Shown: positions 14,765-57,100 of the stretch, piece by piece
How positions within the stretch are numbered: position 1 is the stretch's first letter
How the letters are laid out: each line of letters opens with the position of its first letter
The notes under the pieces: model-generated
Databases searched by the model: none
What the model was told of the DNA's origin: nothing
The model's input: only the letters and a program-made list of their open reading frames with translations
Position numbers and translations under genes: made by a program
Origin: Cinnamomum chago
Lineage: Eukaryota > Streptophyta > Magnoliopsida > Laurales > Lauraceae
Direction of reading: 5' to 3'
DNA: 64,000 nucleotides
Assembly: GCA_038049695.1 (NCBI GenBank)
Contig: CP142458.1
Location: 64,761,501 to 64,825,500, forward strand

Positions 14765-15168
14765 TAAAATTTTATGATATATATTCTACCTTCAAATTCA
14801 AGGGACATCTTATACATTTTTTAGTTATTATTTTATTACTTTAATTATTAATAATTAAAAAAATTTAAATGTGCTTTAAAAAAGAAGTGGGTGGGTGGGT
14901 GGCCTGCTACCAACAGATGTTTCATCCTGGCACATGTATTATGGAGGACTAGGGCTAAAGGTTGGGCGTTGAAGTTTAGCCAGACAAAAGTTCAGGTGGT
15001 TAGTGCATTGAGGTGATGCAGATCATTCATGTGCTGCTCAGTACCTTGATGAATGTGTCACCAATTTCTTTTCTCTGGAATTGTGAATAATTGCCTTTCC
15101 ATCATCCTATTAAATCAAATTACAGAATAGTGATCAGATTTTCATCTTTTTTATCTTGAAAAATCTCA
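14765..15168. other. intergenic, nothing recognised
   Basis: AT-rich sequence with a short GTGG microsatellite near 14,888. No gene seen. Confidence 0.45.
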
Positions 15169-15341
15169 AGGGGTAGCTCAGTTAGTTTAGGATCACGGTT
15201 TGCACCTGAAAATTATGGGTTCGAAACTGTACTACCAGACTAGGGCCACAATGAAATTTTACCCGGCTTTCTCTCCTGAACCCGTTGGAATTATTCTGAC
15301 CTAAAGGATTGGAAACCCTGCATTATCATTAAAAAAAAAAA
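15169..15341 (+). mobile_element. tRNA-derived SINE, family A
   Basis: A complete copy. The tRNA-like head has an A box (GGTAGCTCAGTTAG) and a B box (GGGTTCGAAACT). The body ends with the family tail (CCTAAAGGATTGGAAACCCT..CATTATCATT) and an A-run. Several substitutions against the 52-kb copy, and the absence of a clear target duplication, suggest an older insertion. Confidence 0.85.
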
Positions 15342-16204
15342 TGGAATGCAAGTTGCATTGTACATTTGCATAATTCCATGTCGATCCATGTTTAGATAAA
15401 GGAGCATTAATGCCAAATTCACATGGTGCTTGGGGGCAATGTAGAATTTATTTTGGGTATCCAACAATAGGGGCAGTTGCAGACCTATGATTTTCATTAG
15501 AGGAGGGCTATCAATGGTTAATTGAAAAGATCTCCAAGGTTATCTTGACAAACCACCTAAAGAAGAAAAATAACAATGGAAAATAACCCACCTAAAAAAC
15601 GTGTGATTGAGAGTCATTTAAAGTAGAGAAATTGCACAAAGACAACTTCAACATCGAGACATGAAATATATAAAAGCAAAATGAGAGGATGCATTTTACT
15701 GAGAAAACATAAAAATCGAAAATCAAACTTTACAATTTAAAATAGGAGTTTTTTCTTAACTTGATAATAGTGGAGAAGAATATGAGACGCATCATATAAA
15801 TTCTATCACACTTAACACACATTTGTGTAAGCGATTGAAATCATCTTTAAAAGGAATACAACATTGTACTTTCTCCATGGACTCGCAGTGTAAAGAACTT
15901 GGAGGTCCAAGGACATGAGGTATTATATTTGGTGTAGCCATACAATTTTTCTATAAGGTGCAAAAACCATTTTGAAAGTAATCATCCAAAGAGTTAAAAA
16001 AAAAAAAATAAAAAAAAAAAATCCTTTGTACCCTTTTCGGTTCGTTTTCATTTATAAATCCACAACAAAGAGAATAATATGTATACTATTCCCAGACCAG
16101 TAAACACCAAACTACTTTCCTACCATTTTGGGGATTGTTTGAGTTGAGAATTGAGGGAAGGAGGGAGAGAGACCAAGACACAGTTCTTTTGAAATGGAGG
16201 GAAG
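15342..16204. other. intergenic, no gene recognised
   Basis: AT-rich. Contains an A-run at about 15,996-16,021. Nothing supportable. Confidence 0.45.
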
Positions 16205-16565: not shown

Positions 16566-16872
16566 GATTGCAAATCGATTCTCAATTTTGAAATAAATCT
16601 TAATTTTGACGAGGGTCCACTTAATTTTAAGAGATGGAAATGAGCAAGACTCTTCCTTTTGATTATGGTGTGCAATAATCCTCCAGTTTTCCAATGTATC
16701 CGGTAGCATAATTCTTTCAATGTCTGTATTTGAGTTGAGTGAAATTGAAGTTTATTTGAGCTGGACTTGGACCACTATTAGCTTGATTGTAGAATGTCCA
16801 TTTTAAAACATATGATATGTTTGACAACATGGAGATTGGTGATATATAAAAAAATGTGTAAAAAAAAAAAAA

Positions 16873-16999
16873 CCGCACTACCACACCGGAGCTACAGGGG
16901 AGTTTATCTGGTTTTCTTCTGGACACGAAGGGATTAGTCCAACCCAAAGGATTGGGAACCCTCTGACAGCAAAAAAAAAAAAAAAAAAGAAAAAAAAAA
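16873..16999 (+). mobile_element. tRNA-derived SINE, family A, 5'-truncated
   Basis: Begins inside the family body (CCGCACTACCACACCGG), directly after an A-run, and continues through GGGATTAGTCCAACCCAAAG to GACAGC and a long A-tail. The tRNA-like head with its A and B boxes is missing. GTGTAAAA flanks both sides (before 16872 and at about 17000), a likely target duplication. Confidence 0.8.
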
Positions 17000-17353: not shown

Positions 17354-18904
17354 TAGAGATGTCAAATGGGCCGGCCGGCCCGAACCAGCCCACCAGTCAA
17401 CGGGCCGTGCCGAGGAGGCTGGGCCCATTTGGCCCGGGCCCGCTAGGCCCGCCTGGCATGTGGGCTGCCCTCTGTTGCCAGCCAGGGACGGCCCGCCCAA
17501 AAGTGACTTTTTAAAAAAAATTGTCCATTTTAACCCCTCTCCCATGCGAACATTCCCATAGGATAAAATTTTACTAAACCACATACACCAAATACTTGCA
17601 ATTGGCCAACATGAGATTTTTTTTTTTTTTTTTAATGAAAATAGTAGGAAATGCCTATTGGCAAAGAAACATGTGGGTGTGACTTCCTTACTACATTGAC
17701 ATGCCCCATCCCCCAGCAATGATATGACCATTTTTGGACTGGCACTTGCATTTCCAGAGGTTGGGTTGGACCCCGTTTGCATCCCCCTTTGGCTAGGATG
17801 ATACTTTTATTAATTAGTTTAATTTGATGACCTTTGAATTTAGTGTACATATTGCAAATTCTATATCTTTACTATCATAATGGGGCTATCTTTGCTTAAT
17901 TAATTCAGTTCCTTCCCATCTACCAGCTGGGCCTTGAATTGAAATTGATCCTTTTTCTCTTTTCTTTTTCTTTTTTTTTTTTACTTTAGTTGACTTATGA
18001 TTTTATTGTAATAAATTTGCATGATGTTCAAATATCATTAAACACTGAGGATTGGTAATTAAAGACTAAGATTATTTGATTGGCTTGATATTGTCCATTC
18101 CACTCATTCACATTCAAGTAGATTTTTCATTGTCATTCCTTACTTGATTATCATGCGTTTATGTGGGCTTTATTGGGTCTTTTTTTACTCCTCATGAGTT
18201 GGAGCCCAAAAATCACCTTATTTAGGCTTTGTATCTTCATAGGGTTGGCCCATTAGTTGGTTGGGCTTCCTTGGCAAGCAAGTTTTTCATGCATGGGTGT
18301 GAAAAAGGCACTTTTTAAATGGGTGATGTATTATTTGCCTTCTTTATTGTTGTTGTCCACCATGGAGGTTGGTGATGGCTGTATCAATATGATGACAACA
18401 ATGTGTGTGCAGTGAAGCTTTATATTTTCATACATACGTTCTCATCTAACCGTTAAAAGAGGTGGGTGCACCTATGAAAAGGTAGACATCTTCTTAAAAT
18501 AAAAGCTTCCATCGGTTTGATGGGGACACCACCCATGCAAACACTTCCGTTGGAGAAATTTCCACTAAACTTTAGAACAAGATCACACATGAAATTGGCC
18601 AATATGAGCTCTTTTTTTTCTTAAATTAAAATAGGAGGAGAGACCTATTGACCAAGAGAGTGGGAAAGAGCAAGAGTAACAACAATAAAATTATGTGTGC
18701 ATGACAAAGAAAGGGAGGTAACAATTTTAGCACCACGTGAAAGCTGTCTATTATTAATTGAACCCGCTCGTGTTGGGTATTAGTGTTATTTCTAAAAAAA
18801 TGAAAAAAAAAAAGGCCCGCTGGCCCTCCTGGCCCGGCCAGCTCCAGCCCGCCCCATGGCGGGCCGTGCCAGCACGGCCTGGCCCGGCCCGTTTGACATC
18901 TCTA
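17354..18904. mobile_element. non-autonomous hAT element, 1551 bp
   Basis: The left end is TAGAGATGTCAAATGGGCC. The right end, on the minus strand, reads TAGAGATGTCAAACGGGCC, differing at one position. Flanks are GGTGGGAA (17346-17353) and GGTAGGAA (18905-18912), an 8-bp target duplication with one mismatch. The subterminal ~100 bp at each end is dense in GGCCC/GGGCC motifs, as expected for hAT transposase binding regions. No transposase sequence is recognisable inside. The TIR is nearly identical to the left end of the transposase-bearing element at 22463, which could have mobilised it. Confidence 0.87.
17540..18660. repeat. direct repeats inside the hAT element
   Basis: About 130 bp at 17540-17670 (CCCATGCGAACATTCCC, ATTGGCCAACATGAGA, a T-run, AGGAAATGCCTATTGGCAAAG) recurs in diverged form at about 18530-18660 (CCCATGCAAACACTTCC, ATTGGCCAATATGAGC, a T-run, GGAGAGACCTATTGACCAAG). 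The element therefore holds an internal duplication about 990 bp apart. Confidence 0.65.
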
Positions 18905-19913: not shown

Positions 19914-20089
19914 GAGGGATAGCTCAGTTGGTCTAGGACCGTGGTTTGCTCCCGAATGTTGAAAGTTCCAAACTACACTATCACACTGGGGCCATAAGGG
20001 ATTTACCCGGCTCCCCCTGTGCCTGTAGGGATTAGTCCGGCCTAAAATGCTAGGACACCCTCCATAATAATAATAATAAGAAAAAAAAC
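19914..20089 (+). mobile_element. tRNA-derived SINE, family A
   Basis: Full-length. Head GGGATAGCTCAGTTGGTCTAGG (A box), diverged B box (AAAGTTCCAAACT), family body and a tail of TAATAATAATAATAAG and A-run. Target duplication ATATCAATGT at 19898-19907 and 20092-20101 confirms retroposition. Confidence 0.9.
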
Positions 20090-20520
20090 TGATATCAATG
20101 TTAAGTTTTTTTTCATATCAAAATGCATTCCCTGACCCGTGCGTGATGCTTTAACACTGGCTTGAGCCCACCAGCGTAAACTTCTGAGGATCCAAATTAA
20201 CTCTTTTCTAATGTGTATTTCAAGGGCCAGGTTAGCCAGAGTGGATCTGAGCCTGACCCACATAGTGCTAGATTTGGGCATTTTTTTTAGCCCTGTGGAC
20301 TTTACTCACCTAGTTCCTAATGTCCACTGATTGGGTCTAGGCCTTGATGATTTTAAGAGGTCCGACCTGACTCAGTCCAGCACATTTGGCACAAGGGGTC
20401 TCTGTGTTTTTTTTTTTTTTTTGCAAAGGGATTGATGACTAAACTCCTAGCAATTTGGACTTGGTGTGCATCCAAGTCTTAAAAATTTTGTCTCTCAGGA
20501 GTGGGGTAGCCGGGCCGGCC

Positions 20521-27264: not shown

Positions 27265-27747
27265 GACACTTAGATAAGGAGTCACCCTCGATTGGAACCA
27301 TATCATTGTGTTTCCATTTATTCATCCCGACAACTTTTTAATTTGCTTGTAATGAGCAGTGTACGGCACGAGGCATTGCAACATACTCCAACCATCAACC
27401 ATTTGAGGAGGGATCCGGATCCCCTATTTGGACCAAACCGGGTCAGGGGGTGCCACATGGGAAAGGAATTTTTTTGAGAGATAGAAAAAAAATTATAGGA
27501 GATGAGATGTGACATCTCTCCGATGTAGGTCTAAACAGGGATCCATTTCCTTTGGTGAGTGGAAGAGCAGAAAAGGGTGATGGTACAAGAGAGGAAAATA
27601 GATGGGCCACAAGACCTTCAAAAGAATGGTAAGGAGCGTTAGTTCTCACTGGTAAACATGATTTTCTTTTCACACACCTGACCCACCACTTAAATTAAAA
27701 GATTACCAAAACTACTTTCTACGCACCCATGTTTCCGAAACTACTTA
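27265..27747. other. intergenic, nothing recognised
   Basis: Lies between two hAT-type elements. No coding or repeat signal that can be supported. Confidence 0.4.
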
Positions 27748-27933
27748 TAGGGGTGTAAAAAAAAAACCGGAAAACCGTCTAACCGAACCGAACCAAACCA
27801 AACCGCGGTTAATAACCGTATTTTACGGTTCGATTACGGTTAATGAAATCCAAAAACCGCACTGTTCGGTTCGATTACTGTTTTTCATAATAATTCATGG
27901 TTATTAATTGAACCAAACCGTATAATACGATTC

Positions 27934-28305
27934 GGTTAACCGTACCATTTACAAATAAAAGAAAAAAATAAGGGGGCTAAATGAAATATTTCTTACCTTA
28001 TTTAATTGCTCTTTATGTGTCATTTTACCTTCAATCATTCACATTTATCCCCTTATGTGAGGAAGGCATTCCACGGTTATTAACCGTAATCGAACAATTT
28101 AATACGATTAACCATATACGGTTAACCGTACCATTTACAAATAAAAGAAAAAAATAAGGGGGCTAAATGAAATACTTCTTACCTTATTTAATTGCTCTTT
28201 ATGTGTCATTTTACCTTCAATCATTCACATTTATCCCCTTATGTGAGGAAGGCATTCCACGGTTATTAACCGTAATCGAACAGTTTAATACGGTTAACCG
28301 CGGTT
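27934..28305. repeat. 186-bp tandem duplication inside the hAT MITE
   Basis: Two copies (27934-28119 and 28120-28305) both begin GGTTAACCGTACCATTTAC and are nearly identical over AAATAAGGGGGCTAAATGAA and the following bases. A recent duplication. Confidence 0.9.
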
Positions 28306-28420
28306 ACGGTTTTCCACGGTTTTTGTGGATACGGTTACGGTTACAGTTTTGAAAGACAAAAAATTACGGTTACAGTTCGATTAACGGTTTTCCCAAATTT
28401 ACCGGTTAACCGAACCGTTA

Positions 28421-28642
28421 TGTCATTCATAGAGATGGAAACTAGAACACAGAAAATACAAAATAATGTTTTTAATCCAGTGCCCATTAGGGTCGACTGT
28501 TCTCCCATTATAAAGGGGTTGAATCCCTGATTACATGCAACTATCATTATCTCATCTAATCTAGATCCTAAAAATCAGTTTTACAATTGACTAAGTAAGA
28601 TATGATGACTGGGCCCAAAATGGGTTTGCGCTTGGATTGACA
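28421..28642 (-). repeat. copia 3' LTR
   Basis: 222 bp from TGTCATTCATAG to GGATTGACA. This copy is uninterrupted and shows the empty state of the MITE site found in the partner LTR (ACTAAGTAAG). Confidence 0.95.
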
Positions 28643-28665
28643 CCCCCCCCCCCTCAAATTGATGC
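28643..28665 (-). other. copia polypurine tract
   Basis: On the minus strand a run of G following AATTTGAG sits directly before the 3' LTR, the position of the primer for second-strand synthesis. Confidence 0.75.
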
Positions 28666-29890
28666 TGGGGAGTCATAAAGCAGCAATTTGGAAACAAGAA
28701 ATTGATGTCGAGGCCGAGGAAGTCCCTTGGTGAAGATATCTCCAAACTGAAACTCGGTAGGGACATGAGGTAGACTAATGACATCCCGCTTATATTCATC
28801 CCGAATAAAGTGACAGTCAACTTCGATATATTTGGTACGTTCATGGAAGACGGGATTTTCAGTGATTCGGATAGCCCCAGTATTGTCAGCATGCAATGGA
28901 GTATGAGAGGTTTGAGTGAACCCAAGTTCCGAGAGAAGGCCCCGTAGCCATAAGACTTCAGAACAAGCAGAAGACATGGCCCTATATTCAGCTTCCTTGG
29001 AAGATCTGGACACACGTTCTTGTTTCTTGCATTTCCAAGAAATAAGCGAATTTCCAAGGTACATGCACCAACCAGTAGTAGAACAACGCGTGTCCGGACA
29101 GCTTGCCCAATCAGCATCCGCATAAGCAGTCAGATGAAGAGGATTATCCTTTGGATAATATAAACCACGAGGGACAGTTATGAGCAGATAGCGGATAATG
29201 CGCTTCACAGCTGTCAAATGAAGGTGTCGAGGAGCGGTCATGAATTGGCTCACAAGATGAACAGAATAGGATATGTCAGGTCTAGTGATGGTGAGATAGA
29301 CAAGACTTCCCACTAGGCGCCGATATGTATGAGGATCAGGAAGAAGGTCTCCATCATCTTTACTCAGCTTGAGATTTACCTCGACAGGTGTATCAACAGG
29401 CGAAGAATCATGCAGGTCAGCCAACTCGATAAGGTCCGATGTGTATTAGTGTTGATTAACAAAGAGACCGCTGGGAGATTGATACACCTCTAAGCCTAAG
29501 AAATAAGGCAAAGGACCCAAATCCTTCATATGAAACTAATTCCGGAGGGAATCTTGGAGAGATTTGATCATATCATCATCCGTGCCAATGATAATAATAT
29601 CGTCAACATACACCAGAAGCACAGTAACCCCTGTAGATGTGTGGCATAGAAAGAGAGATGGATCATAAGGGCTTTGAGTAAAGCCACTTTCGCATAAGCG
29701 ACCTCTGAAGGTTTCGAACAATGCCTGAGGAGCTTGCTTTAGACCATAAAGCGATTTTCGCAGTCGACAGACGGACCTCTTGGCGGGAGAGGGGACGCCT
29801 TGTGGTATACACATATAGACCCCTTCTTACAAATCCTCATGGGGAAATGCATTTTTGACGTCCATTTGGTATAATGACCAAGACTGAAAT
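28654..29890 (-). pseudogene. copia RT (C-terminal half) and RNase H
   Basis: The RT part lies at 29890-29450 with the catalytic YVDD (29610-29599) and RKSLYGLKQAPQ. The RNase H part lies at 29424-28654: AYADADWA, then SRSSKEAEYRAM and LHADNTGAIR, which hold the expected D, E and D residues. It ends with IFTKGLPRP. A stop or frame change separates RT and RNase H near 29430-29450. The upstream half of RT lies beyond the inserted solo LTR. Confidence 0.9.
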
Positions 29891-29895
29891 GCAGC

Positions 29896-31662
29896 TGTTA
29901 GTTTTATGGTCTCAATACCAGTATATGATGAATAAATTGATTAATTTCTTTATTTATCAATATAATCATGATTTCCCTTCATGAGATGAATGGTGATTTA
30001 TTACTTTATGCACATGACCAATACATATGACATAATGGTTCATGAGATGAACCGGGTCCCATTAGTATATTAGATGTGATATATGTATATGGATGAGATC
30101 CACATACGAGAGATATGTGTCACAAATCTTATACTTAAAATATCTTCACAATCAGTGATGAGATTGGGCATCTCATCTGACAATGTTGCACTACTTTGAT
30201 CACTATGAGATAGTGTGATTTGTCTCGATCATCAGAATGTAAGATTCTAGATCATAGTGCTGGTACATTGGATGTATTGAAGGACCATGAGAAGCACCTT
30301 ATGAAATACTGTCTCAATTTAAGGACTGCTCTCATAATTCCCTAGCAATAGGCTCTCAATCCTGAGACATTGATGAACTCAAGTTTCTGTCTATTCATTT
30401 GCTTTGAATCACTAATGAGTGAGGCCAACTATAGGTCAACACCTCGGTGTCTTGGGTACATGGTAGTAGGACTGTGGAAACATGCAATGATCAAGGTGAA
30501 ATCTATCTCTAATATCCCCTTGTGCCAATTAATGGATTTATCATTGGTAAGTGTGCACCCATTCCAATTAAGAGTTAATTGGAGCGGTACCAAATGATCA
30601 CTATAATTAATTGGGGCTCAAGGATAATAAGATGTGGATCTAAGATTGGATGAGACAGATTTATTCCAATTGATCCATGGATAATGATAGAGGTGCCTAC
30701 TTATGGTAATTGGGAAGTTTAGGGTCTTCATTGTAATTTATTCCTAAGACTGGAGTGTAATTGCATTTATATAGTGGAGTTATTTGCAATTAACTGTGGG
30801 TCCGGATTGCACATGAGATGTGGGGTCGCGTGTCCCAGTTGGAGCCAGCTTTCTAAGGAATCCCTAGTAGTCCCCACGCTAGCCCAAATTATTAGAAAGA
30901 TACTAATTTTAGTAGAACTCTAAAAGGAAGTAGAAAGTTACTATTTCTATTTGAAGTGAGACTTCTAATAGTGGTAATAGTAAGTTACTAATTATTAATG
31001 GAAGTATGACTTCTATTTTAATTAGTAAAAGAGGAAGTTACTAATCATATTTGAAGTAAGACTTCTAATTGTGATTTAGTAAGCAACTAATTGTTGTGGA
31101 AGTAAGACTTCTATTTCAATTAGAATGAGGTGGTTGCTTAAGTGCTATAAAAAGGGGAGAGGAGTGTATTGGACGTTTTTATGCTCATCCCATATTGGAA
31201 TTCACGCCCAATACCCTTTTGTGCAAGTGTTGCACACTCCTCTTCCTCTCCCTCTTCTAGTTCTCTTCTAGTTTCCTTTAGGGTTTTTTCTCTCGGAGAT
31301 CCCACCATCTTCTTGAGAAAAGAGAATCTGATACGGGTCATAGCGTGGAAGATCAAAAGGTGTTGGAGATTCTGATTTGATTAAGTGAAAGCGTTCATCA
31401 TCAAAGAAAGAACTCAAAGTCTTCATTAGAGCACTACAAAGCTCCAAAGGTATATCTACATCCTTGTATGTTATAGATTTCGTGGTTGCATGTTTAGGTG
31501 TTGTTTTATATCTTCTAGATAGGATATATTACTGTACATGGTTTATGAGTTTGAGGGATTACATCCTGGATTGGGTTTATTGCCTTCTAGATGATTGATG
31601 CCTGCATCAAGTGGGTCAAAAGTTTTTGAAACCTATCTGAAAGGCCCACCTATTTTCCAACA
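29896..31662 (+). mobile_element. solo LTR in copia RT, 1767 bp
   Basis: Starts TGTTAG and ends CCAACA, flanked by a perfect 5-bp target duplication GCAGC (29891-29895 and 31663-31667). Removing it and one GCAGC restores the copia RT reading frame across the junction. There are no coding domains. A TATA box (TATAAAAA, 31146-31153) and a following C/T-rich leader fit the promoter part of a long LTR on the + strand. The family is unassigned; it is unlike the host copia LTR. A single LTR implies recombination after insertion. Confidence 0.9.
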
Positions 31663-31667
31663 GCAGC

Positions 31668-33322
31668 AATGGCGAGAAGTAACCTAACAGATGTCATCTT
31701 TGCCACAGGTGCAAACGTCTCCTCGTAGTCAATGCCATACTTCTGTCTGTTTCCGAGTGCCACAAGTCTAGCTTTGTGTCTATCTAAGGACCCATCAGAT
31801 TTAAGTTTGATCGAGTAAATCCATTTGCAACCAATGGGCTTAACTGCTGAAGGACACTCAACAATATCCCATGTGTGATTCAGAGCCAATGCATCTAATT
31901 CCTCCTTCATGGCCTGGTTCCAGCTATCTTGTTGGACAGCCTGCAAATAAGAACTTGGGATAGAGATAGAAGATAGGGTGGTCATCAAAGAAGTATGGGT
32001 AAATCCATACCGCTTAGGCGGTCTAGAAGTTCTGGAGGAGCAACGTAAGGCAGGAGTAGGCGTGGAACCATTTGTCGGTGGAGGATCAAGGGGAGGGCCA
32101 TCTGCAGTGGCAGGTTTCTCCCGTCGATGGTATACAAAAGCAGGATTAAACCTAGTAACAGAGGTTTGATCCGAAAAACCTGGTAAGAGAGCTGGTAAAG
32201 AGGGAGGAGGACAATCCATGTGAGTTTGGAAGAAATATTGATTTTCAAAGAAAATAACATTTCGAGAAACCCTGATATGACGACCAATGGAATCATAACA
32301 AACAAAACCTTTTTTATTAGTGGCAGAACCCAAAAAAGCACACCTGTGAGATTGTATTGTTAGTTTCGTTCTTTCGGTGGGAGGTAGATGAATGAAGCAA
32401 ATACAGCCAAAGGTACGTAGGTGATCAAACACAGGATGATGACCAAATAATTTAAAATGAGGTGTTAAATGAGCAATGGTAGGTGATGGAAGGCGGTTAA
32501 TGAGATAGACAGCCGTGGTGAGAGCTTCAGTCCAAAAATGAGGGGGAACGGATGATTCAATCAGAAGAGTTCTAGTTACATCAAGAAGATGTCTGTTTTT
32601 CTGTTCCGCGACTCCATTTTGTTGTGGAGTATATGGACAGGTACGTTGAGAAATGATTCCTGTATTGTTTAGAAAGGATTGAAAATCCTTGGAAACATAC
32701 TCCCCCCTGAGTCTGAGCGCAAAGTTTTAATGCATTTAGAGAATTGGTTTGCAACATAGTTAACAAAAAATTTAAATGCATTAAGAACATCAGACTTCGA
32801 ATGTAATAAATAAATCCAAGTAAATCTGCTGTAGTCATCAATGAATGTTACAAAGTACTTGAAATGACTATGGGAAAGGGTCGGAGCAATGCCCCAAACA
32901 TCACTGTGAATCAAGTCAAAACATGCAGTGCTCCGGGTGGTGGAGTGTGAAAAAGGTAAAGTTTTACTCTTTCCTAATTTACAAGCATCACATTCAAAAG
33001 AAGTAGAGCCAATAGGTTTATTTAATAATCCAGATTGAAATAAAGTAGACAAAGTAGAGGCATTTATATGACCAAGCCTATTATGCCACAATCGAGAATT
33101 ATTCTGAATAAAAAAACAAAATAACTGATGTAAAGTTTTATTCTCAATAACAGAAGACATTGGTAAGGAAAAAAGTCTGCCACGCTTAGGCCCCCTTGCG
33201 ATCACTTCCCCCGACTCCTGGTCCTGCACAACACAGCCAGAAAAAGAAAAGGAGACATTGCAATTATTTTCAACAAGCTGACCCACAGAAACCAAATTGA
33301 TAGCAAGATGAGGAGAAACCAA
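31668..33322 (-). pseudogene. copia integrase and RT (N-terminal half)
   Basis: From the high end: a GAG-pre-integrase zinc region (LWHNRLGHI, then CDACKLGKSK), the integrase core with DLIHSDVWG and FVTFIDDYSRF, and LRSDSGG near 32700, where a glutamate would normally follow. A frame change lies near 32690. Next are the integrase C-terminal [12 protein letters not shown] region (32432), a serine/proline spacer, and the first RT motifs ([43 protein letters not shown]). Reading stops where the solo LTR entered. Confidence 0.9.
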
Positions 33323-33353
33323 AACATTGGTTATGGGTAAGGGGCCAGAGGTA

Positions 33354-34478
33354 TCACCAACAGAGGTGATGGGGAGATGATCTCCGTTGGCAGCTTGAAC
33401 AGTGAGATGACCAGTGTAAGGAACGACATTCTGTACTTGTGATGTTCATGGATGCCAAGGCATTGATGATCATTTGGTTAACCATCTCAGGGGTGAGAGG
33501 AACTGGAGACGAAGATTGTGATGTGGAACCAAGCTGTGAGGATGAATCATACTGCAGAGAACCACTGAAGTCAGAGGATGCATAGCATGGAGTGGTTATT
33601 GTGTAAGCAGTAGTAGCTGACGACACGGTGGAAGTATCAGGAGCGGACTGCACATAGTTGCGGGCGTAGAATTGCGAGCCTTCTTCCGACATTCATCAAT
33701 AACATGACCAGTGACTTTACAATATCTGTTAATTCTTGCCTTGCATTGATTTGCATAGCGACCATATTTTTTGCAGTTATGGCACTGAACTTTACTGATG
33801 TCCCGAGGAGGTTGTCTGGTTGTAGCAACATAGGCAAACGGAGCCTCAGCAGATCTTTGTTGTTCCAAAGTAGTTTTCGTAGCCAGACGTTGTTCTTCCC
33901 GCAGAAGTTCTTGAAGGCAGTTATCCAAGCTGGGAATAGTAGCCCTGCTCATCAAGTTCGATCTAACTGGTTCAAACTCCAGACGAAGTTTCATGAGAAG
34001 CTGATCCCGATGACTACTTTGCTGTAATGGAAGTAATTTCGGCAGGAGTGCTGTAGACACCGTGGCAAACTTAATCTCATCATATTCGGACCACAGTCTG
34101 CAAAAGCCATTATAATACTCCTGAATAGACTGGGTGCCTTGAGTGAATTGAGAGATTTCAAGTTCCAATTGAAACTGACGAGCAGCATTGCCTTGTTGAT
34201 AAATGTTCTTAAGATAGTCCCACATTTCACAGGCATTTTTTACAGGGTTTAAGATTGAGGATGAAATGGGATTCAACAGAGCCCAGCAACCATGTCTTGA
34301 TTTGAGCATCCTTTGTTTTCCAAGCTAAAATCTTCTTATCATCTTCCTCAGGTTGAGGGTCAGGTCCATCAATGTGTGCCCAGAGTTCTTTTCCTTCCAA
34401 ATAAATTTGAAATTAGAAGGCCCATGAGGTATAATTTGTTCCATCAAATCGAACCAGGGTTATCTCATGTTTTTCCAT
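33354..34478 (-). pseudogene. copia gag and protease remnant
   Basis: The gag start is the minus-strand ATG at 34478. A frame break near 34310 separates it from the main open part (34309-33596). That part has YLKNIYQQGN, IQEYYNGFCRLW and a zinc knuckle whose histidine is replaced by arginine (CHNCKKYGRYANQC). A second knuckle-like CKVTGHVIDEC follows. The expected protease active-site D-S/T-G segment is absent: the reading jumps near 33,440 from the gag-side spacer to QNVVPYTGHLTVQAANG, which normally lies well after that motif. A deletion has removed it. Confidence 0.85.
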
Positions 34479-35531
34479 TACTAAAGACTAGTAAGAAGCA
34501 CACCCAATTTTAATAACACAAACAGGAGGTGTTGCAACAGATAGCAACCAGCATACGAGATCTGACGGTGAAAAATGTCCAGAGGAGAGGCAACAACAAT
34601 AGGAAGAAGTAACACCAATGATAAAGAAATTAACAGCCAACAACAGTAGTAGTCTCAGATGAAAACAGGAAAAAAAAAAACCATTCGGCAAACAGCAACA
34701 GCAACAATAATAGTAACCCAGATGAAGGAGCAATCAACAGCAGAAATCAAGTAGCAGTAAAATGAAGAAAAATTAACCAGAACATGCAGCAGCAGCAACA
34801 AAGTCCAGAAAAGAACCAGAACAGCAAGCAGCAATAAAAATTCTGGAAACCAGCACCCAAAAAAACCAAAAACGTCTAGGTCGTCTGGGAGTAGAACTGG
34901 ACCTGGGCCCCACCAGGTGATCTCTAGGTAGATCAGAGAGTGGGGATGGGTGAACAGGATAATCAAGCAACTATTGGAAGTGGTCCCAGTCAAATCAGTT
35001 CCAGATCCTGGATTTTGGACGGCCGAGATAAAAACAAGTGGAAAAAATTGAATTTCAACAAAAACAGGTAGAAGACCTACCTCTGATGATCAATAAATCT
35101 TGAAAAAATCTTTATAAACAAGAAGATATTCAGTCGACCAAGAGGGAAGAATCCGCTGAGAATGGTGATGTTGATCACAGGTGGGCTACGCATGATCAGA
35201 GATGATCAGGGATGATCAGAGAGGATCCAGCTAAAGAAAAATATCATAGATGGCTTCCAAGGCTTGGAAGATGACTCAGGAGACGATCAGAGATGATCAA
35301 CCTGGGACCTCTGATGAGAAATAATTCCAGGAAAAATCACCAAAATTCCTGAAATAAACCTGCGACCATACTGGGCTGCTTCTGCAGATGAGTTGATGAT
35401 GATCTGAAGTTGGCCACGTTTGATATGAGATGATCAGATCTGATCATGGAGTATCTGGGATGATCAGTGATGATCTGAGGTTGGACGGAGGGCTTCCAGA
35501 TCATTGGATGTGAAAGAAACTAAAACCCTAG
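34479..35531 (-). other. copia 5' untranslated leader
   Basis: Lies between the primer binding site and gag. It is rich in CAG/CAA-type repeats (about 34650-34850) and GATGATCAGA motifs (35180-35480). No coding domain. Confidence 0.6.
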
Positions 35532-35543
35532 GCTCTGATACCA
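35532..35543 (-). other. copia primer binding site
   Basis: Minus strand TGGTATCAGAGC directly next to the 5' LTR, complementary to the 3' end of plant initiator methionine tRNA. Confidence 0.93.
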
Positions 35544-35717
35544 TGTCATTCATAGAGATGGAAACCAGAATACAGAAAATACAAAATAATGTTTTTAATC
35601 CAGTGCCCATTAGGGTCGAATGTTCTCCCATTATAAAGGGGTTGAATCCCTGATTACATGCAACTATCATTATCTCATCTAATCTAGATCCTAAAAATCA
35701 GTTTTACAATTGACTAA

Positions 35718-36564
35718 GGGGTCGTTTGTTTCTTGTGAAAGTGATTCACATGTGTAAATGACCCACATATGAGTCATTTGCATATGTAAATGACTCACAT
35801 GTGGATCAGATTCCACTGTTTGTTACTAGCATAACATTTCACATGTGAATATATGAATAAGTTGTAGATTGTTTGATGATATCTCAACATCCAAGCAACA
35901 TCAATGGTTGAAAATTGGACACGTGACCGTATTTGAGCTTCTGAAGAATATGAACGGTCCTGATTTTACAGGTGGGGCCCAGAACATAAAAAATCATAAA
36001 AGGCGGACTGGGTATGTTAGTAACAATAGGTTGTATATTGTTTGATGATATCTCAGCCTCTATGCATCATCAACGGTTGAAAATTGGACACAAGGCCGTG
36101 GTTGAGCTTCTAAAGAATATGAACGGTCCTGATTTTACAGGTGGGTCCCAGAAAAATAAAAAAATAATAAAAGGCGGACTGCTATATGTTAGTAACAGTA
36201 GATTAATCGAACGGCTCTGATTATGTTGATCATATCTCAACCTCCATGCATCATCAACGGTTGAAAATTGGACACATGGCCGTGTTTGAGCTTCTTAAGA
36301 GAATGAACGGTCTGGATGTTACAAGTGGGGCCCAAAAAAAAAAAAAAAAAAAGGCGGACTGCTACAGTGCCTCAGTATTGTGTGAAAGTGTTTCACACCT
36401 CTTGAGGTGTGAAAATGCAATGCATAAAAATGGCCATTTTTCACACCATTTACACAACTATTTTACACATGTGACTCAAAATCACACCAAACAAACATGA
36501 TTTTTGTGTATCCATTACCCATGTGATTCAATTACATATGTAAATGGAAAAAACAAACGTCCCC
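35718..36564. mobile_element. PIF/Harbinger (Tourist-like) MITE, 847 bp
   Basis: The left end is GGGGTCGTTTGTTT and the right end read on minus is GGGGACGTTTGTTT. A 3-bp target duplication TAA lies at 35715-35717 and 36565-36567. The partner LTR shows the empty site with one TAA, which proves the insertion and its borders. A 3-bp TAA/TTA duplication with GGG-starting TIRs is typical of PIF/Harbinger elements. No transposase is present. Confidence 0.95.
35861..36370. repeat. three ~170-185 bp tandem units in the MITE
   Basis: Units start near 35861, 36030 and 36201. Each has a TGATGATATCTCA-like start, CATCAACGGTTGAAAATTGG, GAGCTTCT, AATATGAACGGTC and AAAGGCGGACTG. The third unit lacks the TTGTTTGATG start and has a long A-run. 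The MITE is enlarged by this array. Confidence 0.88.
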
Positions 36565-36636
36565 TAAGTAAGATATGATGACTGGGCCCAAAATGAGCCT
36601 GGGCTTGGATTGACACGTTACACCCCTAACTACCTA

Positions 36637-37093: not shown

Positions 37094-37800
37094 TAGGTAA
37101 ATTCTGTTAAAGATAAGGACGCCAATTCAAACTCAACTGATTCTCATCTATCTTAGTTTTCATATCTCCTTGGATCAAAAGTCAACAAGTGGTTATGCTG
37201 TCTATCTTGGATGTAATCTCATTAGTTGGAACTCGAAGAAACAAGTCACTATTGCAAGGTCCAGCACTGAAGCAGAATATAGAGGTGTTGCCATTGTCTC
37301 CTGTGAATTAGTTTGGCTACAGTCTCTTCTTCGCGAGCTTGGCTTCAATTTGTATAGGCCACCTACAGTCTGGTGTGATAAACTTGGTGCTACTTACCAC
37401 TCCGTCAATCCAGTTTTTCATGGACGTACAAAGCATGTTGAAGTTGATATTCACTTCATCCGTGATTTGGTAGCCAAAAAGCAACTTGATGTTTGTTACA
37501 TTTCCACGCAAGACCAAATTGCTGATGTTTTTACTAAACCTCTTAGTTCTTCACGATTTGCAAGCATGCGTACCAAGCTTACTGTCTTTGATAGACACTC
37601 ATGCTTGAGGGGGCTTGTTACGGATAAGGATATCAAAGAAAATTCTATTAGAGATAAGGACGCCAATTCAAACTCAACTGATTCACGTCTATCTTAGTTT
37701 TCATATCTCCTGGGATCTGATTCACTGCTTATCATCAGCAACTGTTTTCTCTTTAAATAAGTGTAACAGTCTTTGACAAATGTAAGTGAGAAAATACAAT
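37094..37800 (+). mobile_element. deleted copia element: LTR piece, RNase H, LTR
   Basis: A 75-bp LTR-like piece (about 37094-37170, GATAAGGACGCCAATTCAAA and onward) joins straight into a copia RNase H (37170-37610: STSGYAVYLG, STEAEYRGVA, WCDKLGATY, ADVFTKPL). After a TTGAGGGGGCT polypurine tract the 3' LTR starts TGTTACGGATAAGG at 37616. It repeats the same 75 bp at 37638-37715, then has a TTTAAATAAG promoter-like motif near 37750. Gag, protease, integrase and RT are gone, as expected from an internal deletion between the 5' LTR and pol. The family differs from the 28421 element. It is a relic. Confidence 0.82.
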
Positions 37801-39664: not shown

Positions 39665-40592
39665 CCAGAGTTCTACTTAGCAGTGTCTAAATTGTTCGTG
39701 ATATTTTTCCAAATATTGTGATATTATTAGAAAAAATAAACTTATTGAGAATATTACAAGAAAATATTGTGATATGTTAAGATATTTGCAAAATAAAACT
39801 TTCAGGGGAGAAAGTGAGAAAATCACAATATTAACAAAAAAAAATTATATCAAAATTCAGTGTGTTCCATTTTCAACCTTGGGCCTAAGATGAAGTGCAC
39901 TCCATTTTATAGCCAGTTCTATATAAAAAGTTATTTTTATATTTTTATTCACTTAAGTTTATATTTTATTTTATTACCCAATAACATCAACTATCAAATA
40001 TCCACGCTTTGGTAGGAAATGAATGCTCACCATTTACCTTATATATTGAATTTTTGTAAATAAGACACCTTTTAGACTTTGCTCTTCACCATTTGGTAAA
40101 GTCCCTTTCATATAAATTCAATAGGGATTTCCCAAATGTGCCCTTTCACTAGGGAATTTGGGAAGAAAATGTTATAAAAATTAGATTGCGAGGAGTTGGT
40201 TTGGTTGTTTCATGCAGATTTCCTCCATTTTAGTTCTTCGTTTTATTTAATATTATGAAAAACAGTTTCTAAGAATTATTTTAAGGGCCCGTTTGTTTAT
40301 TGAAATTGAACTTTTAGTTCTAAAAGTCGTTAAAATTGAAGATTCATAAGTAGCTATATATCAAGTAATCTCCACTTTTAATAGAAGTAAATCAATGGTA
40401 TCCTAGCAGTAAGCACCTCCCTCTCCACAAACAATGCATGTTTATAAATAAACAATGCAAAATGCCCATGAAGCTGGAAATCATCAACTTTATGCAATAT
40501 AGTATAATATACACATACTCAAACACTGTGAAAAAGGAAAATTTATAAGGCTAGCTAAGAGTATTTTGAAGTATATAATTTTCTGTTCTATC
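39665..40592. other. intergenic, no gene recognised
   Basis: AT-rich. GGGCCCGTTTGTTT at 40287 resembles a Harbinger end, but no partner end was found. Confidence 0.4.
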
Positions 40593-40773
40593 TTTTTTTT
40601 TTTTGATAACGTAGGGTTCCCAGCCCTTTGGGCCAGAATAATCCCTACGGGCCCATGAGAGAAAGCCGGGTAAAATTCCTCTGTAACCCCAGTGTGGTAG
40701 AGCAGTTTCGAACCCACAACCTCCGGGTGCAAACCGTAGTCCTAGGCCAACTGAGCTACCCCTCGGGGTTAAT
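40593..40773 (-). mobile_element. tRNA-derived SINE, family A
   Basis: Full-length, on the minus strand. Head GGGGTAGCTCAGTTGGCCTA (A box), GGGTTCGAAACT (B box), the family body and an A-tail (T-run on +). The target duplication TTTTCTGTTCTATC (40579-40592 and 40774-40787) is 14 bp and exact, so this is one of the youngest copies. Confidence 0.94.
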
Positions 40774-49716: not shown

Positions 49717-52015
49717 AGAACTGAAGAGAAAAGACTCACATTCTCCTACTGCATGGTTCATGTTGTGTTTAGCAGAAATTAATGACTGGAGGCAAAAAAA
49801 GAATTAAAACAATCATAACAAAAGCAAGCATGTAACAAACTGGGAACTTTATTTAGAGACTTATTTATTATAATTCAAGGTATTGTGTTACGGCTACTGC
49901 ATTGCAATAAAAACAGAAGACTTCTATTTATTTTTAGTTTTGATCATTAAGAGCTCACGAGGTTTGTTCTTTTGAGAATTGAAATTTTAGGTTCATTGAA
50001 TTGGTGTTAAGTTCTAAACTTTTCATGTATTTGTTATGGGGCTATGTTCCCATGTTAGCCTTGCACTGAGCAGAATTTTGTAAAAACTACTCGGGATATT
50101 GACTGTATGATCATCCTTAGACTTGACATTTGCCTCAAACCAATTGAAGTTTAAATATTTTCCGTTTCGTACAATGACGGTGCGATATTGCATTGCCCTA
50201 GGATATCACACAACATGATATGTGTGATATCGCATGGCCCCTAAGATACCACACAGCACAATGCGTGCGAAATCAGATGGCCCTAGGATACCACACGAAC
50301 AGCTCTATGGGAAATACTTAAATGTTGAAGGTGTATGGGCGAATGTTAGGTTTAAGGACAACTCTACAGCAAAATCCTAAACTAGTATAAATGGCAATGG
50401 GTCAGGTTAAATGTATAATTTGCCCCTTGCCGGGACCGGTTTTGCTTTGGTTTTAATGTGTTAGGGGGCAGCTACAGGTTTATATATGCCAACTTGAGTC
50501 AGTTTGGGGTTGGGTACAGGACTTGGTCACTCCAACTCATATTACCCATTGAAACAGGAGCAGATGGCTTGAATTTAATGGACCCTACGACCAATCAGGC
50601 TATTGATTATTTGGACCTACTTGATCAATCAAATGGCCTTTTCATGTATCTGAATCAGGGCCCTATTGAGAAAAAGGGATCAAATCATAATTTGGACGGC
50701 CAAGATGGGTCCAAAACAGTTTTGACAATAAAATTCTAAATTAAATGAGGGGTCACATAATACCCTTCAATTAGAATCCCCAGTTGGGTCCATCTATGTT
50801 ACAAAAGAAGACATAAGAGGCACAATTTCCAGCAATTGGATGCATCTAATGACCAGTCAAGAAACTTCTTTCCATGCAGGAAGATGTAAGGATCTTGTTG
50901 GAAAATGTAGAGAATTGTTGGGATCTTGAGTTTGAGACTGGGTTTTTCTTCCTAGTGTGGATTCAATCCAGAGACTTAACAGCACTATTCAACAACTCCC
51001 ATAAGAGATTTTTTTATTGGAGAACTGGATCCTTTATTGTGAGGGCAGAACCATAATTTTTTTCTAAGCAGAGGTTGCCATTATATGCAGCTAGAAACTC
51101 ACTCAAGACAGCCCATGAACAACATCACAAGAGAGAGATTATAAAAAAAAAAGTGGTACACTTTTGTGAAAGGGAAAATCTCAAATCAGGGCTTAACTTT
51201 TGGGCACATTTTAATTCATGAAAAAAAAGAAAAAGAAAAAAAACCTACATTTCAAATCAGAACTTAAGTTTTCCACTTTTCTCTCAGATCAGGATAAACT
51301 GCCGGAATAGGTACTTTCCGACGAGTTTTTTCCCCTTCTTCTCAAAAATCCAAAAATGTCTCCTTAGGGCTTTATGTGTGAAATTAGTATTTAATGGTCG
51401 TCTTTGGATATTCTCCTTTTCTTCTCCATGCAACCACTTTTAGAATCGAAGTCTCGGAAATTCTAGGAATCCAATGACACAACAAATGGTTCCTATAAAT
51501 GACAAATGAAAAAAAAAATTCTAAGGCAACCATTCTCCCCCAAAACCATTTTCATTTTCTTTGCAAATGCCATACAGAAGCATACCCTTAGGCTAGCTCT
51601 TTATTATCATTAATGTTTCCTACAAATGAGAGCATAACATGTTTACTGCTTTCAATTTGTTCTGTTAAGAAAATGGGTTTTGGTGGGTTTTGGTTAATAC
51701 TGCACCAAGAAGGAGTCAAGCAAGCTGATTCAAGGGGTGGGTACTTTACCTGTCTATGCTAATTACTAATAACTCTCTGCAGAAAAAAAAAAAAAAAAAG
51801 GGTTTAAAAATGCATGCACTGATTGCAACCTTTAGAACTGTTTACTGATGTGTTTTGATAGTGTTGTTGAAGGACCAAATATCCCAATGTCTTATTTCAC
51901 CTTACAAATATTTTATCACGTCTCTGCTTTTACTTTAAAATACCTTGTCATTACTTCTTCTGTGATGTGAAATCGCCTCATCTTTACTCCTCCATAAATG
52001 TAAATAAACAAACTC
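49717..52015. other. CER3 3' flank, no gene
   Basis: A probable 3' UTR follows the stop, with AATAAA-like sequence near 49,908. The rest is AT-rich intergenic DNA with one tandem repeat (50182-50300) and an A-run near 51,782. Confidence 0.45.
50182..50300. repeat. 42-43 bp tandem repeat, three units
   Basis: Units start GCGATATTGCATTGCCCTAG (50182), GTGATATCGCATGGCCCCTA (50224) and GCGAAATCAGATGGCCCTAG (50267). Each contains a GATAYCACACA motif and the units are moderately diverged. Confidence 0.85.
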
Positions 52016-52180
52016 AAGGGGTAGCTCAATTGGCCTAGGACCACCGTTTGCACCCGGAGGTTGTAGGTTCGAAACTGCACTACCACACTGAGGCTACAGG
52101 GGAGTTTACATGGCTTTCCTCTGGGCTAGGTGAGATTAGTCCAGCCCAAAGGGTTGAGAACCCTCTGATAGCAAAAAAAA
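52016..52180 (+). mobile_element. tRNA-derived SINE, family A (reference-like copy)
   Basis: Full-length and well preserved. GGGGTAGCTCAATTGGCCTA (A box), AGGTTCGAAACT (B box), a body with GGGGAGTTTACATGGCTTTC, and GAACCCTCTGATAGC followed by an A-tail. Target duplication TAAATAAACA at 52001-52010 and 52185-52194. Confidence 0.94.
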
Positions 52181-53899
52181 TACATAAATAAACATGCCCC
52201 ACCAAAGGAACACATTTCACCAGAAAGCCAGCAGTCAACCATTGGGAGGGCCCTATTAAAAGGGTCTCTTTAGGAGACATGGTAAAAAAACTGAGAAAAA
52301 TAAAAGACATCAATGGCTTGGAATATCTGAGAGTGTCCTTGAAATGTGATTTTGGCAATTTTACAAGCAATCTCTGTATTAGAAAGCAATTATAATATAT
52401 TAAGTTGGAAGGTTTTGGATCCAATTTTGACTGTAATTACTATTCTGACTTGGAAGTTACTTTCAGTTTTTACAACTGCTAACAAACTTTTCCTTTCACT
52501 TTCCACTAATATACTCCCCCACTTACGGACTCCCATCTTCTCCGTTTCTAACATAGTCCTACCTCTTCAAGCATACCCGTGATTAACACAGGTTTTTGTG
52601 CTAGTATATGTTTAAACAAGAGCAGCTTCATTGAAAATCTAGGGTATGGTTTTAGTGCACCTCATTTTGTGGGGTTCAGGTGGATGCATCCAGTCATGAG
52701 AAGTAGATTAGGGGTAGACCATGAACAAGAAGTTCTTGTTCTTCTGTAGGGATGGATCAAGAGTAATCTCCAATCAGTTGATGATTATCATAGATTTAGA
52801 GGTTCTTAAGTTCAAATTGTTTATACCTGTAACCTATCAGTGAATACCACTAGAATCTCACTCAGTGGTTTAGATGAAACTTAAGACAGTATGGATTTGA
52901 TCATAGGTGGGCCCCATTCTGCAAATTTCTCAGTAGGTAAGAGATTACATGAAATTTAATAAATTCTATTTCAACCATGAAGTCATACTGTCTCAACCAA
53001 GGTTGGAAAACTCGGTCTCTAGCTAACTCCATTGTCCAACTTGAAAAAAAAATTTTGACTCAGGGGAGTCAACCCGGTCGCTTCATTTATATTATTAACT
53101 CAGTTCACCTGTATTCATGATAATTGATCTAAATTAACAAACTTACATATTCAAAAAATACGAAAATAAGCAGAAGAAAAACAAAACTGTCCTTGCCACA
53201 ACTTCTCACATACACGGAGTCTCCCCCAAATTTGACTCTGGCCTTGTCCAAAATGTGGCGACTCAAAAAAGTCAGGAGTCAATTTGGAGAGTTTTCAAAT
53301 TTTGATTCAAACCACTCCATTCAACCATTCAACAAGAACATTTTACCCATGGATCTAAGGCTCTTAACAATTACAAGAACATTTTACCTCTTCCCATTTG
53401 TGTGGGCTCCTTTTCCACTTATGTGGGGGCAGTCTTTCAATGTGTGTGCGGGCTGGGCTCTCTCTTGGGTCTAGCCCCCTTGGCTGGGTATAAAAAAAAA
53501 CACACACACACAATTGCAAGGACATAGGTTGTGGGGTACAAGTACAATCTTCACCATTTTAGGTGAGAGTCTCACTTATCCATTCAATGGGAGTGATTGG
53601 TGGCTGGGCTGAGTCAGGCTCAAGTGTGTCCGATTTTAGCCCATGGGCCTGAAAAGTCAGGCTGGGCACGGCCCATTTGCAGGATAAATATACTTCTTTG
53701 CTAGTTATTTCAGGCGAGGCATTTAAGCTTACATATGACCTAGGCCCTTCCCAGTTAGCCATTGGTCTAGAAAGTTAAGCTAAGGTCCAGCCCACGGGCC
53801 TAAAACATAGCATCCAGATGAAAGCAGACCCAGACTGGCTTTTGTTTGGGCTCGCTCGGCCCATGAGCACACCCTATTTTAATGCTCTAGACATGCATC
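52181..53899. other. intergenic, no gene recognised
   Basis: GGGCC-rich sequence from about 53,590 to 53,875 ending in ACACCCTA looks like one end of a hAT-type element without its partner. A (CA)n run lies near 53,501. Confidence 0.45.
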
Positions 53900-54115: not shown

Positions 54116-57100
54116 TGTTGGGTTTTTTGTTTGTTTCAAAAATTCTAAAGGTGTTTTTTGTAAAAGGTGTTTTGTCCTTTTTTCACTTTTGCTTTATGGG
54201 TTGTGTAGGCTTTTGTAAACAACCCATCCCACATTGCTCAAGTTCAACTTTTGAACCCGAACCATGCCCTGAACGTGAAGAAGGACCAGGTGGCTCTTAT
54301 GCAAGGAAGCAATGGAAAGAAAATGATTACCTGTGCAATAGCCATATTCTGAAGCTTGTAGCAGACAACATTTATAATATGTATTCTGAAGCCCGATCTG
54401 CTAAAGACCTCTGGAGAGCTCTTGATAAAAAAATATAAAACAGAAGAGTCTGGAGCTAAGAAGTATGCAGTTGGTCGCTATCTGAATTTCAAGATGGTAG
54501 ATGACAAGCCCTTTCTTCCTCAAGTACATAACTTACAAACCATTGTTAATAAAATTGTTAAAGAAGGAATCTGAATTGATGAACAGATCCAAGTGGCTAC
54601 AATTATTGAAAAATTACCACCCACTTGGAAGGATATACAAAAAACTCTTCGACACAAGAGAAAGGATTATTCTTTGGAGAGCCTTCAGCGCTACTTGAGA
54701 ATTGAGGAAGAAGCCCGGAATAGTGATCAAAAGGATTTGGCTGAGAATGCTTGCAAAATAAATTTAGCTGAATCTAAATCACAAGTTGATGGTGAAAAGA
54801 AAGGGAAATTTGACCAACATCTAAGCAGGAATAAGCAGTCTAATCCTTCTTTTAAGAGGAAGAATTCGAAGCAAAACCAGAACAAAAAGTTCAGTAAAAA
54901 TCAAGGGACTGTCAAGCCAAAGGCTAAAGGCAGTTGCTTTGTTTGTGGCAAGCTGGGACACTTTGCAAGAGAATGTCGTCACCGAAAGAAATGTCCACAA
55001 CAATCTCAGGCAACCAAGCCTCAAGCTAATGTTACTGAAGCTGAACAGTTTGTTGCTGTTATTTCTAAGGTAAATGCGATCAGCACAGCAAAGAGCGAAG
55101 GATGGTGAATTGACACTGGTGCAACCAACCATGTCACTTTTAACACAAGTGTGATCAAGACCTATGAGAAGGTCACGAATGATTGTAAGCTCGCTCTGGG
55201 AACTACCGTTACTACTCAAGTAATCGGCAAAGGGAAGGTTGAACTTCAGTTCACTTCCGGGAAGACAGTGACATTGCTGAACGTGTTCCATGCACCAGAA
55301 TTGAGAAAGAACCATGTGTCTAGTTATCTTCTGAATAAGGCCAGATTTAAACAGGTAATAGAATCCAACCAATTTGTGATCACCAAGAAAGGTGTATTTG
55401 TCAGTAAGGGTTATGCATGTAAGAATATGTTTAAATTGAATACTGTCAATAATAATATTGCATCTTCTTCTCTGCTTATATTATGGCTTCAGTTGATGAA
55501 TGGCATGGTAGATTAGGTCACATTAATTTCAAAACTATGAGAAATATGAGTAATGATGGATTAATTGATAAATATGAAGATGATCATAAGAAATGTATTA
55601 TATGCTCTCAATCCAAAATTACTCGTAAGCCATTTAAACATGTGGAAAGGGAATCTGCATTACTTCAATTGGTTCATTCTGATAAATGTGATCTAAGTAA
55701 TACTATGAATAGAGGTGGTAAATATTATTTTATTACTTTTATTGATGACTGTTCTAGGTATACTTATGTATACTTATTAAGAACTAAAGATGAAGCACTA
55801 TCTAAATTTCAAATTTATGTGACTGAAGTTGAAAATAAATTGAATAGAAAGGTTGTGACATTCAGAAGTGATAGAGGTGGTGAATACACTTCAAAAGATT
55901 TTTTAGACTATTGTGAATCTAAAGGAATTAAGAGAACTTGTACTGCCCCTTGTATTCCCCAACAAAATGGTATAGCAGAAAGGAAAAATAGGACTTTGAT
56001 TGAAATGGTTAACTCTATGTTAATAGCATCTGGGGAGTCCTAAAAACTTATGGGGTGAAGCTCTGTTGACTGCCTGTTATATTTTAAATAGAGTTTTACA
56101 TTCTAAAACTAATAGAACACCTTTTGAGATTTGGGAAGGGAGAAAGCCTAATCTTAGATATTTTAGAGTTTGGGGGTGTTTAGCACATATCAGGATAGTA
56201 AATCCAAAAAGGCCTAAATTAGGACCCCACTCATGGGAGTGTGTTTTCATTGGCTATGCACAAGATAGTGCTGCCTACAGATTCATGAAATTAGAAGACC
56301 TAAGCCTAGTTGAGTCTAGAGATGCAGATTTCTTTGAAGACCTTTTTCCTTTTAAAACTAAGTTTACATCAGAACCTTCTTCATTGAATAGAGTACTAGA
56401 AACTCATGAGGAAGAGGAATCTCAACCTAGAAGGAGTAAGAGACTAAGGACAGCTACTAGTTTTGGTCCTGACTTTGAAACCTATCTAGTAGAGGAAGAT
56501 CCATCTACTTTCCAGGAGGCTATGACTGCTCATGATGCTGCCTTTTGGAAGGAGGCATTAGATCATGACATTGAATCTGTTTTAGCCAATAATACCTGGG
56601 AATTAACTGACTTACCTTTAGGTACTAAACCTTTAGGGTGCAAGTGGGTTCTCAAGAAAAAACTTAGGCCTGATGGGTCAATAGAGAAATATAAAGTCAG
56701 GCTAGTAGCCAAAGGCTTTACGCAAAAAGAGGGAATAGACTTCTTTGATACTTATTCACCTGTGTCTAGAATCAGTTCTATTAGACTCTTGATTGCTATT
56801 GCTACTGTTCATACATCAGATGGATGTCAAAACTGCTTTTCTAAATGGAGATTTGGAAGAGGAAATTTATATGGATCAACCAGAAGGCTATGTCATAAAA
56901 GGACAAGAAAATAAGGTGTGTAAATTAATAAAGTCCTTATAAGGTGTGGATTAACGTTGTGAATTTAAACGTTAAGGATTAAACATGTTTTAATCGCTGA
57001 TTTAATGTGGATTAATGATATTAAACGAAGAGGTTTAATGGACCAATGGACTACTAATCACAATATAAATTAGGGCCATCTGTGTTATTGTTTCAATACA

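Follow-up and report, generated by a model that had tools for sequence, protein, structure and literature searches.

How did four transposable elements come to be stacked within 8.9 kb of plant DNA, and how much of their order of arrival can be read from a single sequence? The question is raised by a nested block in the window, the 64,000-nucleotide stretch of DNA analyzed here. The block is very probably an ordinary nested plant transposon stack, in which a hAT-like element received a Ty1/copia retrotransposon, and the copia element in turn received a solo LTR and a Harbinger-type MITE. The initial annotation had named these four elements, set their boundaries and pointed to an empty MITE site in the partner LTR; this description is borne out, with the element classes graded as probable. 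The four target duplications on which it relied are likewise all present in the sequence (Table 1).

Table 1. Coordinates of the nested block and its parts (positions in the window; a dot marks features without strand)
Feature	Position	Strand	Basis
Nested block, hAT duplication to duplication	27740-36636		four elements, each with its own target duplication
hAT target duplication, left copy ACTACTTA	27740-27747	.	sequence read
hAT-like non-autonomous element, left part, 673 bp	27748-28420	.	TIR TAGGGGTGTAA, motifs, no long frame
Tandem duplication of ~186 bp within hAT-like element	27930-28299	.	98% alike
copia target duplication CGTTA, left copy, within hAT element	28416-28420	.	sequence read
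Ty1/copia retrotransposon	28421-36615	-	paired LTRs, domains, CGTTA duplications
copia 3' LTR, 222 bp, holding empty Harbinger site	28421-28642	-	LTR alignment
copia internal part: remaining reverse transcriptase, RNase H-like ORF, G-run before LTR	28643-29895	-	
copia RVT_2, rest	29536-29826	-	Pfam, E 1.9e-15
GCAGC target duplication of single-LTR insert, left copy	29891-29895	.	sequence read
Single (solo) LTR-like insert, 1767 bp, TGTTAG...CCAACA, in copia reverse-transcriptase gene	29896-31662	.	
Tandem repeat of ~100 bp in single-LTR insert	30935-31123	.	
GCAGC target duplication of single-LTR insert, right copy	31663-31667	.	sequence read
copia internal part: gag, integrase, SH3-like, reverse transcriptase start, primer-binding site at 5' LTR	31668-35543	-	
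copia SH3-like domain and reverse transcriptase start	31668-32726	-	Pfam
copia gag-pre-integrase and integrase	32669-33445	-	Pfam
copia gag	33596-34324	-	Pfam
copia 5' LTR split by Harbinger MITE, 222 bp plus MITE	35544-36615	-	LTR alignment
Harbinger target duplication TAA, left copy	35715-35717	.	sequence read
PIF/Harbinger-type MITE, 847 bp, inside copia 5' LTR	35718-36564	.	TIR, TAA, empty site
Three internal repeats of Harbinger MITE, spacings 169 and 184	35856-36362	.	
Harbinger target duplication TAA, right copy	36565-36567	.	sequence read
copia target duplication CGTTA, right copy	36616-36620	.	sequence read
hAT right tip CACCCCTA, 8 bp	36621-36628	.	TIR and duplication
hAT target duplication, right copy ACTACCTA	36629-36636	.	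sequence read

For random positions of the window, the frequency of a shared 8 bp with at most one mismatch is 0.0007; it is 0.0017 for 5 bp and 0.020 for 3 bp. The product of the chances for the four duplications is ~4e-11, a figure that is too strong, since finding the duplications was part of how the ends were chosen.

The outermost element begins with TAGGGGTGTAA at 27748 and ends with TTACACCCCTA at 36628, which gives a perfect TIR of 11 bp. The 8-bp duplications outside these short TIRs, ACTACTTA and ACTACCTA, differ at one of eight positions. Motifs of the CGGTTA/ACGGTT type occur at 40 sites in the 673 bp of the left part, against 8 sites in 1-27747 and 8 in 36637-64000; the longest stop-free stretch of this part is 61 aa, and its tandem duplication shows 6 differences over 186 aligned positions. 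Ends, motifs and duplication make a hAT parent the probable source of this sequence. The assignment of the right tip depends on the TIR and the duplication, since just 8 bp of the hAT element lie beyond copia; the distance of 13 bp from copia to the right end, as first annotated, is true if one CGTTA is counted, and the 8 bp are what remains past the second.

We scanned the window for ends 300-10000 bp apart that combine a perfect TIR with an 8-bp duplication of at most one mismatch. An 8-bp TIR does not discriminate under these rules, because 47 pairs are found in the window and 3-12 in each of 20 mononucleotide shuffles. With an 11-bp TIR, four pairs are found in the window: two A/T runs, the nested hAT element and an element at 17354-18904. 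The same rule yields no pair in 18 of 20 mononucleotide shuffles and one pair in the other two. The element at 17354-18904 is 1551 bp long and likewise hAT-like, with a perfect 11-bp TIR (TAGAGATGTCA), a duplication reading GGTGGGAA/GGTAGGAA and a longest stop-free stretch of 151 aa. Further copies of the nested hAT element, the single LTR or the Harbinger MITE were not found within the window at E <= 1e-5.

Inside the hAT-like element lies the copia retrotransposon. Its LTRs read TG...CA on the minus strand, where TGGTATCAGAGCC adjoins the 3' side of the 5' LTR and the 3' LTR is immediately preceded by a G-run; we take TGGTATCAGAGC to be the initiator-methionine primer site. The copia assignment draws on the paired LTRs, the 5-bp duplication, the primer-binding site and the purine tract, and on the position of integrase upstream of reverse transcriptase, the domains following the order gag, gag-pre-integrase/integrase, SH3-like and RVT_2. 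Pfam matches were obtained for four of the six copia coding pieces, in copia order, with the rve match (29 bits) below its curated cut-off of 32.6. No Pfam match was obtained for the other two, one of which is an RNase H-like ORF (28654-29445) that resembles by eye the C-terminal part of the relative P0117. The coding sequence is divided among frames, with a stop near the single-LTR junction, and this copia is therefore not a working copy. We propose no function for any element of the block, because the copia coding sequence carries this stop and the frame changes, and both DNA elements are without a transposase-sized frame. A search of viral contigs for relatives of the copia protein gave seven pattern matches, none of them related, and an exact stretch of the copia LTR had no match there.

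Outside the MITE, the two copia LTRs are identical at 215 of 222 positions. The seven differences comprise five transitions and two transversions (K2P 0.032, standard error ~0.012), and four of them fall inside 7 bp (28623-28629 versus 36596-36602). This clustering suggests a single local replacement over independent substitutions and makes the LTR divergence a poor clock, so that we give no age for the element.

The insert in the 5' LTR displays a 3-bp duplication of the TAA type and TIRs starting with GGG (GGGGWCGTTTGTTT, alike at 13 of 14 positions), which together with the empty site in the partner LTR identify it as a probable PIF/Harbinger-type MITE. Its longest stop-free stretch is 97 aa. 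When the flanks are joined (40+40 bases) and compared with the intact left LTR, 76 of 80 positions match in a gap-free alignment and the junction itself is free of mismatches, in agreement with the intact empty site claimed by the initial annotation. A scan of the unshuffled window for TAA with a 14-bp TIR (at most one mismatch, ends ~200-2000 bp apart) returned two pairs, the MITE and one A-run. A retrotransposon integrates with two LTRs made from a single template; since the MITE is present in one LTR only, it arrived after copia had integrated.

The remaining insert interrupts the copia reverse-transcriptase gene. It has TG...CA ends and a 5-bp duplication, and an internal region is absent. 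The short flanks joined with one GCAGC give LLLAIAAFQSWSLYQMDV, where P0038 of Persea americana has LLLVIAAFKSWHLYQMDV. The joined frame LLLAIAAFQSWSLYQMDVKNAF is open across the junction, with a stop ~20 residues beyond; of the other two joined-flank frames, one has a single stop and the other several. All four aligned relatives (P0038, P0117, P0001 and P0002) are continuous at this junction and collinear with the joined frame. This junction and that of the Harbinger MITE, with its empty site, are thus the two that are backed independently of the duplications. For the copia piece 31650-32726, the top match is Persea P0001 (67% over 96%), while P0038 ranks 38th by score and reaches 83% over 52% of the piece (both among the best 120 of 1268 matches). 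From the ends, the duplication and the closure of the protein frame, we infer that the insert is a solo LTR, presumably the product of recombination between two LTRs. Its tandem repeat ends ~20 bp before a plus-strand TATAAA at 31146, a suggestion of plus orientation; the 1767-bp insert has this single TATAAA on its plus strand but two on its minus strand, which leaves the orientation uncertain and the solo-LTR step slightly weaker. A scan of the single-LTR insert for bacterial promoters, with 6 sites versus 8.3 in shuffles, is uninformative.

The stacking would thus have begun with the insertion of a hAT-like MITE by cut-and-paste, followed by the integration of Ty1/copia near its right end with a 5-bp duplication. 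Later, a Harbinger-type MITE would have entered one copia LTR with a 3-bp TAA duplication. Another LTR retrotransposon would have entered the copia reverse-transcriptase gene and then been reduced to a single LTR; it likely arrived after copia had integrated. The insertion order proposed at the outset holds for copia into hAT and for the Harbinger MITE after copia, and does not extend to the single-LTR insert, which is undatable against the MITE. A solo LTR takes two steps to form, insertion and then LTR-LTR recombination, so that at least five events are recorded, or six if the tandem duplication of the hAT-like element arose here and not in its family. Three transposition mechanisms had been counted at the locus. 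Since hAT and PIF/Harbinger elements alike move by the DDE cut-and-paste route, the number is two, retrotransposition and cut-and-paste by two superfamilies, and we infer the transposases that acted.

The least direct part of this history concerns the single-LTR insert. Its uncertain orientation would allow another kind of element that has TG...CA ends and duplicates 5 bp of target, such as a small complete LTR element, and no full-length relative was found in the window. A small complete element was set aside after comparison of the first and last 600 bp, in which no terminal direct repeat was found and the only matches, of 15 and 10 bp, are at chance level (E 0.53). The primer-site motif of copia is also absent from the 1767-bp insert, and the tandem repeat is placed just upstream of TATAAA, as tandem repeats in U3 regions can be. 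We therefore regard an identity other than a solo LTR as very improbable. A separate matter is when the solo LTR came in. Its site is internal to copia, outside both LTRs, and nothing in the window dates the insert after integration; copia could thus have been loaded with it on arrival, as a defective copy mobilized in trans. On general knowledge, a later insertion is simpler than a history in which 1.8 kb of extra sequence was packaged and reverse-transcribed, which makes a copia that was already loaded at integration very improbable.

The intact hAT ends, flanked by the 8-bp duplication with its one mismatch, also fit a history in which copia entered the hAT element elsewhere and the loaded element was brought here by hAT transposase. 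On general knowledge, a loaded MITE of 8.9 kb is a poor substrate, and no positive evidence speaks for such a move, which we consider extremely unlikely. The intact ends give the same very slight chance to the view that the loaded element, all 8.9 kb of it, may once have travelled as hAT cargo or may be able to do so even now; if true, a DNA transposon would here act as the carrier of a retrotransposon. Insertion of copia into a resident hAT-like element, with the solo LTR and the Harbinger MITE following, remains our reading of the block.

The window is plant sequence, judged to come from a member of the Laurales and probably of the family Lauraceae. A tetraspanin-8-like ORF (6395-6934) matches Cinnamomum micranthum at 92% and Persea americana at 93%, over 93% of the query, and another match reaches 94% (among the best 120 of 994 matches). 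Several other repeats are present. Copies of a ~165-bp repeat, 73-85% alike, are found at 15159-15346, 40582-40764 and 52007-52188, with pieces also at 8316-8396, 16870-16986 and 19914-20092. Boxes resembling TAGCTCAGTTGG and GGTTCGAA and an A-run were read in three copies and give the repeat the appearance of a tRNA-derived SINE. At 37099-37717, an LTR-like piece (37099-37176) leads straight into sequence that is RNase H-like by eye, with a purine tract and then a further copy of the LTR (37640-37717, 94%) after it; this copia remnant looks like an internal deletion. Copia-like polyprotein pieces on the plus strand (54575-56914) include, by eye, a gag zinc knuckle, integrase and reverse transcriptase. 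An ORF at 62438-63025 is similar by eye to what we take to be the plant mobile domain of transposon-related plant proteins.

Nested transposons in several layers are described in other plants. At rice centromere 8, a solo LTR is host to two DNA transposons and ten LTR retrotransposons, which form two to six layers; nesting is described as not very common in the euchromatin of rice and Arabidopsis (PMC4387472). That array resembles the present locus in combining retrotransposons, DNA elements and solo LTRs in several nested layers, and differs from it in the families involved and in the host. For wheat chromosome 3B, 30,199 nested insertions of up to eight layers are reported as reconstructed (PMC4290129), an automated chromosome-scale set unlike the single locus considered here. 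A survey of 12 plant genomes describes nesting of LTR retrotransposons as common, especially in large genomes, and coding and LTR regions as uncommon targets (PMC6911290). That survey concerns pairs of LTR elements, whereas at this locus a coding sequence received one insert and an LTR the other, which is a DNA element. Our literature search for Persea or Lauraceae, or for "insertion order", found no report, and we make no claim on the print record for the host. The locus is clear but ordinary, as stacks of several layers that include DNA elements and solo LTRs have already been published for rice, and it leaves the knowledge of plant transposons unchanged. It is a clean teaching example, in which four duplications and one kept empty site reveal most of the stacking from a single sequence.
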